From: Variovorax sp. Root318D1
Lineage (GTDB): Bacteria; Pseudomonadota; Gammaproteobacteria; Burkholderiales; Burkholderiaceae_C
DNA: 64,000 nucleotides
Direction of reading: 5' to 3'
NCBI RefSeq assembly: GCF_001424835.1
Contig: NZ_LMCQ01000002.1
Span: forward strand, 28,156-92,155
The notes below the pieces were generated by a model. It had not been told where the DNA came from. It searched no databases and was given only the letters and a program-made list of their open reading frames with translations. This document shows, piece by piece, positions 19,955-32,401 of the stretch (positions within the stretch are counted from its first letter, which is position 1; every line of letters begins with the position of its first letter). The translations under genes and the position numbers were made by a program.

Positions 19955-21102
19955 CGAATGTGGCACCTCGCCCCGGACCGCCGCTCTGGCTGCTGGCCGA
20001 GCTTACCTACCGCTGTCCGCTGCATTGCGTGTTCTGCTTCAACCCGGTCGACTTCGCCCGGCAGGAGGACGAGCTCGGCACCGAGGACTGGTTGCGCGTG
20101 CTGCGCGAGGGCCGCGAGCTCGGCGCGGTGCAATGCGGCCTCTCGGGCGGCGAGCCGCTCTTGCGCGACGATCTCGAAGTCATCATCGCCGAGGCCGCGC
20201 GGCTGGGCTACTACACCAACCTGCTGACCTCCGGCGTCGGCCTCACGGCGCAGCGCGCCGCCGCGCTCAAGGCCGCGGGCCTGGACCACGTTCAGCTGTC
20301 GTTCCAGGACTCCACGCGCGAGATGAACGACTTTCTCTCGCACACCAAGACCTTCGAATTGAAGAACCGGGTCGCGAAGATCATCAAGGACCAGGGCTGG
20401 CCGATGGTGCTGAACGTGGTGATCCATCGCATGAACATCGACCACATCGACCGCATCATCGAGATGGCGCACGAGATGGGCGCCGAGTACCTCGAGTTGG
20501 CCAACACGCAGTACTACTCGTGGGCCTTCGTCAACCGCGACCAACTGCTGCCCACGCACGAGCAGCTTCGCCACGCCGAGGAGGTGACCGACGCCTGGCG
20601 CAAGCGGCTCGGCGAGCGCATGCGCATCTTCTTCGTGGCGCCCGACTATCACGAGGGCAAGGCCAAGAAATGCGTCAACGGCTGGGGCAGCATGTTCCTC
20701 ACCGTGGCGCCCGACGGCACCGCGCTGCCTTGCCACACCGCCAAGATGCTGCCCGGCCTCGAGTTTCCGAACGTGAAGGCGCACAGCCTGCGCGATATCT
20801 GGTTCGACTCGGAAGGCTTCAACCGCTACCGCGGCACCGGCTGGATGAAGGAGCCCTGCGCGAGCTGCGATCAGCGCGAGCAGGACCTGGGCGGCTGCCG
20901 CTGCCAGGCGTACCTGCTGGCGCAGGATGCGGCCGCCGCCGACCCGGTGTGCGTCAAGAGCCCCGATCACCATCGCGTGGTGGAGGCGGTGGAGCGTGCG
21001 GCCGCGCGGGATCCGGCGGCGCCCACCGAGCATCCGCTGGTGTTTCGCGATCCGGCCAATTCGCGGCGGCTCTCGGCCGCACTCGTCACGCCGGACGCGT
21101 GA
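19951..21102 (+). CDS. pqqE: PqqA peptide cyclase, radical SAM enzyme PqqE
   Basis: 383 residues. LTYRCPLHCVFCFNP contains the C-x3-C-x2-C radical SAM cluster, followed by CGLSGGEPLLRDDLE (GGE motif). The C-terminal SPASM region has cysteines in KKCVNGWGS, LPCHTAKMLPG and CASCDQREQDLGGCRCQA for auxiliary iron-sulfur clusters. It forms the carbon-carbon bond between Glu and Tyr of PqqA. The 3' end overlaps the convergent mxaL gene by 17 bases (21086-21102). Confidence 0.97.
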   Translation: MTNVAPRPGPPLWLLAELTYRCPLHCVFCFNPVDFARQEDELGTEDWLRVLREGRELGAVQCGLSGGEPLLRDDLEVIIAEAARLGYYTNLLTSGVGLTAQRAAALKAAGLDHVQLSFQDSTREMNDFLSHTKTFELKNRVAKIIKDQGWPMVLNVVIHRMNIDHIDRIIEMAHEMGAEYLELANTQYYSWAFVNRDQLLPTHEQLRHAEEVTDAWRKRLGERMRIFFVAPDYHEGKAKKCVNGWGSMFLTVAPDGTALPCHTAKMLPGLEFPNVKAHSLRDIWFDSEGFNRYRGTGWMKEPCASCDQREQDLGGCRCQAYLLAQDAAAADPVCVKSPDHHRVVEAVERAAARDPAAPTEHPLVFRDPANSRRLSAALVTPDA

Positions 21103-22084
21103 GTCCGCGCGGCGGCACGCTGTCGATTGCTTTCTTTTCGCGCTTCGCCGGCTGCCGCTCGCGCAGCCAGCCCAGATCCGGCGCGAACCGCCACACCAGC
21201 AGCAGCAGCGCCAGCAGCGCGGGGATCCATCGCAGGTCGGTGTCCGTCGGCACCTGTTGCGCGTAGCGGCTGTCGAGCATCGCCGTCATCAGCGCATCGG
21301 GCTTGTTCAGGCGCCGGTAGTTCACACCCACCAGTTCGGCCAGCGAGCGCAGGTGGTCTTGCCTGAGCTCTGAAAGATGCTCGTGGTTGAGCGTGCCGCC
21401 CATGGCCGAGCCTTGCACCACCTCGTCGGCACGCCAGTAGCCCGCGGGCTCGCCGTTGCTGCCGGTTTTGGGAATGGGCACCGGCACGTCGCCACCCACG
21501 CCGATTAGCCAGCCCTTCACGTCGCCGGGCTTGATGTCGGTCATCGGCGGCGTCTCGTTGATGCGCAGCGGCGGCGATTCCTGGCCGTCGCTGATGAAGA
21601 CGAAGCCGGTGTCCGGCCCGATGCTGCGGGCTCCGCGCACCGCCCAGGTCACGCCCTTGCTCACGTTGCTGGCGTTGGCCCAGCGCATGCGGCCGTCGAT
21701 GCGCTCGAGCGAGGCCAGCAGTTCTTCATAGTGGCTGCAAACCTCGACCGGCGTAAGGATCACCACCGAGCGGTAGTCCGCAAAAATGCTCCAGCCCACC
21801 TTGGAGCCGCAGGGCAGCGCACCCAACACGTCGCGCATGGCCGCGCGCGCCAAGGTCAGCCGGCTCACCGCCGTATGGTTCAGTTCGACATCCTCGACGT
21901 TCATGCTTTGCGTGATGTCGAAGCTCACCTGCCAGTTGAACACCGGGCGTTGCAACTGCACGCGCGGAGGCCAGACGGCGAACGCCAGCAGGAGCACGGC
22001 CAGCAGCAGAGGTCCGTTGCCCGTGCTGCCGCCGAAGCGCCTTGCAGCCGAAAGCCACCGCCGCGCGGGAGACGATGGCGTCAC
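21086..22084 (-). CDS. mxaL: MxaL-like von Willebrand A-domain protein
   Basis: 332 residues, membrane-anchored. A hydrophobic segment at about 25-40 precedes a vWA domain with a MIDAS-like site at VSFDITQSMNVED (D-x-T-x-S in place of the usual D-x-S-x-S) and FVFISDGQESPP; a second transmembrane stretch (WIPALLALLLLVWRF) is near the C-terminus. MxaL belongs to the MxaACKL set needed for metal insertion or assembly of methanol dehydrogenase. It is last in the xox/mxa operon. Start is GTG 22084, overlapping the mxaK stop (GTGA). Confidence 0.85.
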   Translation of the reverse strand: MTPSSPARRWLSAARRFGGSTGNGPLLLAVLLLAFAVWPPRVQLQRPVFNWQVSFDITQSMNVEDVELNHTAVSRLTLARAAMRDVLGALPCGSKVGWSIFADYRSVVILTPVEVCSHYEELLASLERIDGRMRWANASNVSKGVTWAVRGARSIGPDTGFVFISDGQESPPLRINETPPMTDIKPGDVKGWLIGVGGDVPVPIPKTGSNGEPAGYWRADEVVQGSAMGGTLNHEHLSELRQDHLRSLAELVGVNYRRLNKPDALMTAMLDSRYAQQVPTDTDLRWIPALLALLLLVWRFAPDLGWLRERQPAKREKKAIDSVPPRGLTRPA

Positions 22085-30571: not shown

Positions 30572-32401
30572 TCAGTTCTTCGGCAGCGCAAACACTGTCA
30601 GCGAACCACCGAGTTCGGTGTACTGGCTCAGCTCCTTGTAGCCGCCGACGGCGCCCAGGCCTTCGGTGCTCTTCTCGGGGTCGATGCCCGCGGCCATGCC
30701 GATGCCGGCCCAGCCGCCAATGCCGGAGAACACGCCGATGTACTGCTTGCCCTTGTGCTCATAGGTGAACACGTTGCCGATGATGCCGGACGGCGTCTTG
30801 AACTTGAACAGCTCCTTGTTGATGTCCTTGGCGTCCACGCACTTCAGGTAACCCTCGAGCGTGCCGTAGCAGGAGATGCCGCCGGCGGTGTTCAGCGAAC
30901 CGCTCCACACCGAGAACTTCTCTGCCTTGGTCTGCACGATCTTGCCGGTGCCCGCATCCCAGGCGATGAAGTTGCCCATGCCGCCATGGCTGCCCGGCGT
31001 GGGGTACATCGACAGCGTGGCGCCCACGTACGGCTGGCCCGCGGTGTACTCGACCTTGAACGGCTCGTAGTCCATGCAGACGTGGTTCGTCGGTACGTAG
31101 AAGAGCTTGGTGTTGGGGTCGAAGGAGGCGGGTTGCTGGTCCTTGCTGCCGAGCGCCGCGGGGCAGATGCCCTTGGTGTTGACGTCCGCGCCGTTCTGCG
31201 CCGTGGAGTACTTGGCAACCACTTGCGGGCGGCCGGTCTTCATGTCGACGTGCGTGGCCCAGTTCACCTTGGGGTCGTACTTCTCGGCCACCAGCAGCGC
31301 ACCGGTCACGCGGTCCAGCGTGTAGGCAAAGCCGTTGCGGTCGAAGTGCACCAGCGCCTTGGTCGGCTTGCCCTTGACGTTGATGTCCGCCAGGATCATT
31401 TCATTGATACCGTCGAAGTCCCATTCGTCGAACGGCGTCATCTGGTAGACCCAGTTGACCTTGCCGGTGTCCACGTCGCGCGAGAAGATGCTCATCGACC
31501 ACTTGTTGTCACCGGGCCGCTGCGACGGGTTCCAGGTCGACGGGTTTCCGGTGCCGTAGTACACGGCATTGGTCGCCTTGTCGTAGCTGTACCAGCCCCA
31601 GGTGGTGCCGCCGCCGATCTTCCACTGGTCGCCCTTCCAGGTCTTCAGCGAAGAGTCCTTGCCCACCGGTGCGAGCTTGCCGTCGGTCCAGGTCATGGAC
31701 TTGGCCGGGTCCATCAGCATTTCTTCGTCAGGCCCCGTGCTGAAGCCCTTCCAGGCCAGCTTGCCGTCCTTGATGTTGTAAGCGGCCAGGAAACCGCGCA
31801 CGCCGAATTCGCCACCGCTGATGCCGGTGATGACCTTGTCCTTGAAGACGTGGGGTGCGTTGGTGTTGGTGGCGCCGACCTTCGGATCGCCGTTCTTCAC
31901 CGTCCATGCGACCTTGCCGGTCTTTGCATCGAGCGCCACCAGCGTGGTGTCGGCCTGTTGCAGGAAGACCTTGCCCTCGGCATAGGCGAGGCCCCGGTTC
32001 ACGGTGTCGCAGCACATGACGGCAATGACCGACTGGTCCTGCTTGGGCTCGTACTTCCAGAGGATCTTCTGGGTTTCGATGTCGAGTGCGTACACCTTGT
32101 TGGGAAACGGGGAATGCAGGTACATCGTTCCGTCGACCACCAGGGGCGAACCCTCGTGGCCGCGCAGTACGCCGGTGGAGAACGTCCACGCGACCTGCAT
32201 CTTGCCCACGTTGCTCTTGGTGATCTGATTCAACTTGCTGTAGCGCTGGTTGAACATATCGCCCGCTTGCGTGGCCCAGTTCTTGGAGTTGGCGATGTTT
32301 TTCTCTACATCGGCATTGGCAAGCGCCAAAGCCGGAAGAGCCAACATCGCGACGCCGATATGCCGTACAAGACGGCCGGCGATCTGCCTGGAAAACTTCA
32401 T
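30572..32401 (-). CDS. xoxF: lanthanide-dependent PQQ methanol dehydrogenase XoxF
   Basis: 609 residues. A signal peptide (HIGVAMLALPALALA) precedes an eight-bladed PQQ propeller with repeated W-docking motifs (KVAWTVKNG, KLAWKGFSTG, KVNWVYQMTP). The vicinal disulfide is Cys130-Cys131 (VMCCDTVN). The active-site segment DEWDFDGINE holds Asp328 and, two residues on, Asp330; this second Asp replaces the Ala of calcium MxaF and marks a lanthanide enzyme. It oxidises methanol in the periplasm. A good ribosome site (GAGGAG) precedes ATG 32401. First gene of a tight minus-strand run reaching mxaL at 21.1 kb, and divergent from the ABC-uptake operon. Confidence 0.97.
   Translation of the reverse strand: MKFSRQIAGRLVRHIGVAMLALPALALANADVEKNIANSKNWATQAGDMFNQRYSKLNQITKSNVGKMQVAWTFSTGVLRGHEGSPLVVDGTMYLHSPFPNKVYALDIETQKILWKYEPKQDQSVIAVMCCDTVNRGLAYAEGKVFLQQADTTLVALDAKTGKVAWTVKNGDPKVGATNTNAPHVFKDKVITGISGGEFGVRGFLAAYNIKDGKLAWKGFSTGPDEEMLMDPAKSMTWTDGKLAPVGKDSSLKTWKGDQWKIGGGTTWGWYSYDKATNAVYYGTGNPSTWNPSQRPGDNKWSMSIFSRDVDTGKVNWVYQMTPFDEWDFDGINEMILADINVKGKPTKALVHFDRNGFAYTLDRVTGALLVAEKYDPKVNWATHVDMKTGRPQVVAKYSTAQNGADVNTKGICPAALGSKDQQPASFDPNTKLFYVPTNHVCMDYEPFKVEYTAGQPYVGATLSMYPTPGSHGGMGNFIAWDAGTGKIVQTKAEKFSVWSGSLNTAGGISCYGTLEGYLKCVDAKDINKELFKFKTPSGIIGNVFTYEHKGKQYIGVFSGIGGWAGIGMAAGIDPEKSTEGLGAVGGYKELSQYTELGGSLTVFALPKN

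Follow-up and report, generated by a model that had tools for sequence, protein, structure and literature searches.

The window analysed here is the 64,000-nucleotide stretch at positions 28156-92155 of contig NZ_LMCQ01000002.1 of Variovorax sp. Root318D1, whose draft genome (5.75 Mb, 25 contigs) is 99.99% complete. Thirteen genes on its minus strand, spanning 21086 to 32401, run in the order xoxF-G-J, orf230, orf125, a YVTN beta-propeller gene, mxaD and mxaR-S-A-C-K-L (Table 1), with intergenic distances from -64 to +102 bp, including five overlaps; the last six genes keep the order of classic mxaFI operons. The original prediction had described an unbroken minus-strand run from xoxF to mxaL, and both the run and its boundaries were right. 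Its gene list held for mxaRSACKL and mxaD beside xoxFGJ, but it had put mxaD after mxaL, where the gene in fact sits ahead of mxaR and adjoins the YVTN gene, and it had passed over orf230, orf125 and the YVTN gene, which stand between xoxJ and mxaD. The closest named relatives of the MxaC protein were from Variovorax, with a 98% match in V. paradoxus DS1452.

Table 1. Coordinates in the window, strand and basis of annotation for the xox-mxa run and the gene sets on either side
Feature	Coordinates	Strand	Basis
xoxF, predicted lanthanide-type PQQ methanol dehydrogenase, XoxF5-like	30572..32401	-	TIGR03075, 730 bits, over cut-off
xoxG, c-type cytochrome, one CxxCH at residue 56	30065..30469	-	TIGR03874, 71 bits (below cut-off of 162); CxxCH; position
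xoxJ, periplasmic binding protein	29178..30068	-	TIGR03871, 286 bits, over cut-off; best PDB match 6onp XoxJ
orf230, conserved xox-cluster companion	28471..29166	-	no family model
orf125, small protein	28062..28433	-	no family match; 21 homologues in fetched loci
YVTN beta-propeller protein	27056..28096	-	TIGR02276 repeats, 217 bits
mxaD homologue (SRPBCC)	26466..27011	-	PF10604 (Polyketide_cyc2); matches the gene following mxaL in classic mxa clusters
mxaR, MoxR-type AAA+ ATPase, Walker A GDVGVGKTT, FFFNE at Walker B place	25414..26433	-	PF07726 (AAA_3), PF17863; motif conservation
mxaS, DUF58 protein, DVSAS MIDAS-type motif	24512..25387	-	PF01882, 80 bits
mxaA	23646..24515	-	no family; homologue at same place in 79 loci
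mxaC, membrane VWA protein, MIDAS DRSSS	22629..23630	-	PF13519; homologues bear the mxaC name in a source
mxaK, membrane protein with TPR-like stretch	22081..22692	-	PF13432 below cut-off; position; start uncertain (next Met 22632)
mxaL, membrane VWA-like protein, DITQS motif	21086..22084	-	motif conservation; position
pqqA (17789-17863) and pqqB, C, D, E, PQQ cofactor synthesis, convergent with mxaL	17789..21102	+	TIGR02108, TIGR02109 over cut-off; pqqA recognised by eye; pqqC, pqqD by order only
ABC exporter set of PQQ alcohol dehydrogenase systems, divergent from xoxF	32857..36723	+	TIGR03864, TIGR03866, TIGR03861 over cut-off; TIGR03863 below cut-off

The dehydrogenase encoded by xoxF carries Asp328 and Asp330 within EWDFDG, as had been predicted, the latter being the extra aspartate two residues past the catalytic one. 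Its best PDB matches were the solved XoxF structures 6dam (954 bits) and 6oc5 (911 bits), and the remaining chains, including MxaF, scored at most 648 bits; by sequence comparison, it appears closer to XoxF than to MxaF and would be an XoxF5 by nearest match. A whole-genome search of the host returned three matches to the pyrroloquinoline quinone (PQQ) alcohol dehydrogenase family TIGR03075, of which the second has a WDFDG motif (an Asp-x-Asp dehydrogenase) and the third is a quinohaemoprotein with WDYTS, a calcium-type state by motif. The WD(F/Y)AG motif of MxaF occurred in none of the three, and MxaI (PF02315) had no match in the whole genome even at E ≤ 10. In agreement with the original prediction, no mxaF or mxaI was thus found with the set or elsewhere in the genome, and one copy of mxaC was found.

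The mxa genes encode an AAA+ MoxR ATPase with neighbouring von Willebrand factor A (VWA) proteins bearing metal ion-dependent adhesion site (MIDAS) motifs, as recognised by PF07726, PF01882, and PF13519, while MxaA, MxaK, and MxaL had no Pfam or NCBIfam model over cut-off and owe their names to position and homology. The MIDAS Asp and both Ser residues of MxaC, as well as the Asp and last Ser of MxaL (with Thr or Ser between), were present in 81 of 81 aligned rows; the MxaS motif retained its Asp in 75 and its Ser in 76 of 77 rows, and Walker A of MxaR was kept in 74 of 75, the remaining row being a gap. Hydropathy profiles suggested that MxaC and MxaL are membrane-bound, with a VWA domain flanked by terminal hydrophobic stretches, and that MxaR and MxaS are soluble; the membrane sides assigned to these proteins below are presumptive. 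Median pairwise ratios of nonsynonymous to synonymous substitution rates (dN/dS) between the window and 11 Variovorax were 0.055 for mxaR, 0.073 for mxaC, 0.136 for mxaS, 0.188 for mxaK, 0.196 for mxaL, and 0.237 for mxaA, with 0.052 for xoxF; among 21 Paraburkholderia or Burkholderia, the mxa genes ranged from 0.12 to 0.43, with xoxF at 0.073. The Walker B place of MoxR ATPases usually holds an acidic pair. The FFFNE of MxaR has Asn there in 74 of 75 rows, and the remaining row is again a gap.

Linkage of the two gene groups was traced by scanning genomes with an alignment of MxaC; the best 80 of 230 relatives were kept as named loci and compared using the window proteins as queries. A xoxF gene (>900 bits) lay ahead of mxaR on the same strand as a complete mxaRSACKL in 32 of the 80 loci (all 11 Variovorax and 21 Paraburkholderia or Burkholderia), and XoxF had the Asp-x-Asp pair in all 32; because it recurs to this extent, the linkage is more than chance. 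Complete six-gene mxa sets were found in 74 of the 80 loci. Whole-genome searches of 50 of the 80 genomes (the 32 linked and 18 of the 48 unlinked, the other 30 being left out) identified XoxF at 965 bits or more in every one and MxaI in a single genome, that of Methyloversatilis thermotolerans, with an MxaF nearby (WDYAG). Since MxaI was found neither in the window genome nor in any of the 32 linked relatives, the set likely helps to ready the rare-earth enzyme.

Four further layouts in fetched contigs tie xox genes to mxaRSACKL, besides the one of Variovorax and Paraburkholderia: xoxF-J-yvtn-mxaD convergent with mxaRSACKL (L185, L187, L188, L189, L203); mxaRSACKL followed by xoxG-J-yvtn-mxaD, with xoxF elsewhere or not found (L197, L202, L240); mxaRSACKL followed by xoxF (L184, and L235/L236 across two contigs); and mxaRSACKL divergent from, and about 7 kb away from, xoxFGJ-orf230-orf125-yvtn-mxaD (L186, L211). 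Other fetched sets were unlinked (L190, L191, L192, L193, L194, L195, L196, L201, and, in family f26, L198, L199, L200, L213, and L279 to L283). Upstream of mxaRSACKL in a Granulosicoccus locus (L063, 1-2568) lie homologues of orf230 and orf125 and the margin of a PQQ dehydrogenase gene; this may be one more linked case, truncated where the locus ends. In a Granulosicoccaceae contig (L087, 8581-12289), mxaK and mxaL are separated by an additional mxaC-like gene.

In a sample of 399 genomes of the order (cut-offs of E ≤ 1e-25 for MxaC and E ≤ 1e-150 for XoxF), MxaC was found in 34, and the XoxF query matched 38, leaving 37 after removal of G191, whose protein is an MxaF by motif and place. Both proteins occurred in 20 genomes, MxaC only in 14, XoxF only in 17, and neither in 348 (odds ratio, 29; Fisher p = 4e-15, with kinship ignored). 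Twelve of the 14 MxaC-only genomes belong to family f26, which is Methylophilaceae-like judging from its gene content, and a family search revealed at least one DYDG dehydrogenase in each of the 11 such f26 genomes other than G191. As for the other two, a contig end cuts xoxF in G001, and xoxG and xoxJ adjoin mxaL in G333, where the family search found no PQQ dehydrogenase. MxaI was present in six of the 34 MxaC genomes, all from f26. Six f26 genomes of only 1.28-1.35 Mb have kept all six mxa genes; they gave no MxaI match, and each has one full-length dehydrogenase over the TIGR03075 cut-off, with a DYDG motif. In two of these (G282 and G366), searches with the two PQQ dehydrogenase families matched XoxF and nothing else.

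A control at the level of the phylum (398 genomes) gave 90 matches to the MxaC alignment (E ≤ 1e-20), 13 of them at 327 bits or more and the next at 103 bits. Nine of the 13 lay outside the order, and all nine were classic clusters with an MxaF bearing WDYAG and with MxaI beside mxaR. Classic sets, with WDFAG or WDYAG and MxaI, were also seen in six genomes of the order sample and in one Methyloversatilis.

An unrooted four-gene tree of 75 mxa sets of our choosing placed 16 of 16 mxaFI-linked sets in one clade (support, 0.997), and the XoxF-linked and unlinked sets fell outside it. With three sets that have xoxGJ but no adjacent xoxF scored as linked, xox-linkage required six changes on the tree, and the three-state scoring required seven, whereas 300 label shuffles gave no fewer than 27. 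Outgroup rooting on three genes resolved neither the root nor the mxaFI-linked clade and does not tell which client came first. Two mxaRSACKL sets occur in Methyloversatilis thermotolerans: L210, next to mxaFI, falls inside the mxaFI clade, and L040, which is unlinked, falls outside it.

We consider it likely, from sequence comparison, that mxaRSACKL encodes a membrane-bound ATPase machine that would take newly exported XoxF to an active state loaded with metal and PQQ. Our data are best explained by maturation of XoxF, since the set is intact and under selection, accompanies xoxF, and has been retained in genomes where no candidate client other than XoxF was found. MoxR ATPases with VWA partners are described as maturing specific enzymes, including methanol dehydrogenase (PMC3893208). 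MxaR and MxaS would act at the inner membrane face, and MxaC and MxaL, with their metal-binding MIDAS sites, would form together with MxaA and MxaK a membrane and periplasmic arm holding apo-XoxF open; XoxJ and MxaD would handle the apo-enzyme and its link to XoxG. The least certain step is whether the machine would hand over the lanthanide itself or only open the protein. The interpretation offered by the original prediction is thus partly supported. Comparison gives good support to a lanthanide enzyme as the client of the set, namely through XoxF in 50 and MxaI in one of the 50 searched genomes, the several layouts, and the two small genomes with XoxF as sole match; repurposing of the set for rare-earth insertion is a conjecture. 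More tentatively, MxaRSACKL may at root be a maturase of methanol dehydrogenases that in Burkholderiales would most often serve XoxF, as a dedicated rare-earth assembly machine, with MxaFI the client of one branch; we hold this possible but doubtful.

Several observations weigh against maturation of XoxF by the set. Of the 80 mxaC loci, 48 showed no xoxF nearby; the stretch upstream of mxaR exceeds 6.6 kb in 31 of these, and the remaining 17 lack mxaR or have less than 6 kb of contig there. In the order sample, MxaC went unmatched in 17 of the 37 genomes with XoxF, which suggests that many XoxF enzymes manage without the set. In Methylobacterium extorquens AM1, as reported in the transcript data of PMC6414531, lanthanum cuts mxaRSACKL transcripts about 20- to 130-fold as xoxFGJ rise, and the organism runs XoxF1 with the mxa genes strongly repressed. 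The 28 genes hit at least four times in a transposon screen for XoxF function include xoxF1, G, J, and an MxaD homologue, and no mxaRSACKL gene is among them (PMC7391723, Table 1). According to a review, XoxF requires neither mxaACKLD nor mxaRSEH (PMC11845868). The need of XoxF for the mxa set is therefore not universal, given the XoxF genomes without MxaC and the repression reported for M. extorquens (PMC6414531), and the dependence, if real, is lineage-specific or visible only when lanthanide is scarce.

Other roles for the set can be weighed on the same data. It might serve another PQQ enzyme of the cell, the calcium-type quinohaemoprotein or the second Asp-x-Asp dehydrogenase, both encoded in the host genome, and lie by xoxF only for shared regulation; this is unlikely, as a genome of the same genus (G350) gave neither an MxaC nor an XoxF match yet encodes a dehydrogenase whose calcium-type motif is the one seen in the host genome, and G282 and G366 keep the six mxa genes with no other match to the families searched than XoxF. 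A target other than XoxF itself, namely XoxJ, XoxG, or the cell envelope (Bat-type MoxR operons are thought to act in this way), would agree with the resemblance of MxaR, MxaS, and MxaC to generic MoxR-DUF58-VWA operons. In six such operons, taken from sub-threshold matches of the phylum control, mxaR scored 157-179 bits (five operons), mxaS 59-111 bits, and mxaC 90-111 bits. The gap in the MxaC scores nevertheless sets this family sharply apart, and the family tracks methanol dehydrogenase genes, making such a role improbable.

The set could also be the residue of an mxaFI operon that has been lost, an origin suggested for Sphaerotilus, several genomes of which are described with partial mxa sets and without mxaFI (PMC13300288); moreover, these genes go by the name of accessories of the calcium enzyme. 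Such an origin appears very improbable in view of the completeness of most sets, that of Sphaerotilus mobilis (L029) among them, their low dN/dS and invariant motifs, their retention in genomes of 1.28-1.35 Mb, and the position of XoxF-linked and unlinked sets outside the mxaFI-linked clade. Signs of a decaying operon, namely broken genes, lost motifs, and relaxed selection, were sought, and none was seen.

Compared with the classic mxaFJGIRSACKLD cluster of Methylobacterium and Methylophilaceae, the window shares six genes in the same order, plus mxaD and an mxaJ/xoxJ-type gene, but its genome has no match to mxaF or mxaI, mxaD precedes mxaR, the xox-linked dehydrogenases read DFDG or DYDG where the classic ones read DFAG or DYAG, and XoxF-linked sets fall outside the clade of the 16 mxaFI-linked sets. 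XoxF with mxaRSACKL in the absence of mxaFI is already known: in the account of PMC4109929, Methylotenera mobilis JLW8 and M. versatilis 301, which grow on methanol plates with La3+, carry XoxF and mxaRSACKL in two copies each but no mxaFJGI. Unlike the window, these strains are described there as lacking mxaD, and the account does not place their mxa sets beside xoxFJG. Also known from PMC4109929 is one xoxFJG near mxaRSACKL, on an island of M. mobilis 13, where it lies three genes upstream of the cluster in a genome that has mxaFI. The Sphaerotilus genomes resemble ours in having accessory mxa genes and XoxF5 without MxaFI, but their sets are presented as partial and called remnants (PMC13300288), whereas the window set is complete, constrained, and adjoins xoxF. 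M. extorquens AM1 likewise has xoxF, G, and J together (PMC6414531, PMC7391723), but its mxaRSACKL genes are grouped with mxaFI, and La3+ represses them (PMC6414531).

XoxF itself has been published for Variovorax and for 28 of 34 Comamonadaceae genera, as given in PMC7065363. In searches of one open-access library, we found no report of mxaRSACKL-xoxF linkage in Variovorax or Paraburkholderia, nor of a separate XoxF-linked mxa subgroup or its recurrent linkage, although a 2014 review by Keltjens and others may discuss them. With an XoxF-linked subgroup in genomes that lack the calcium enzyme, Variovorax and Paraburkholderia offer genetically tractable hosts for the question of a rare-earth maturase, and the conservation of this subgroup bears on the claim that XoxF needs no mxa maturation genes (PMC11845868). 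Caution is warranted before the presence of mxa accessory genes is taken to mark the calcium enzyme or its former presence.

Of the companion genes between xoxJ and mxaR, mxaD has the clearest published parallel: loss of an MxaD homologue in M. extorquens is reported to slow lanthanum-dependent growth (0.11 vs 0.16 per hour; PMC7391723), which fits the position of mxaD in the xox group of the window. The orf230 product is predicted to be a LolA/RseB-like half-barrel from a weak fold match. Conserved cysteines of orf125 are Cys41, Cys57, Cys59, and Cys117, numbered from a query two residues longer than orf125, and the gene accompanies xoxFGJ whether or not mxa genes are present. Close to the pqq genes, a histidine kinase (HAMP, HisKA_3, HATPase_c; 15248-17140) is a candidate regulator of the cluster. 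Past the ABC exporter genes lies a TonB-dependent receptor (37728-40022) that scored far under the cut-off of the PQQ receptor model and has a putative role in lanthanide or PQQ uptake.

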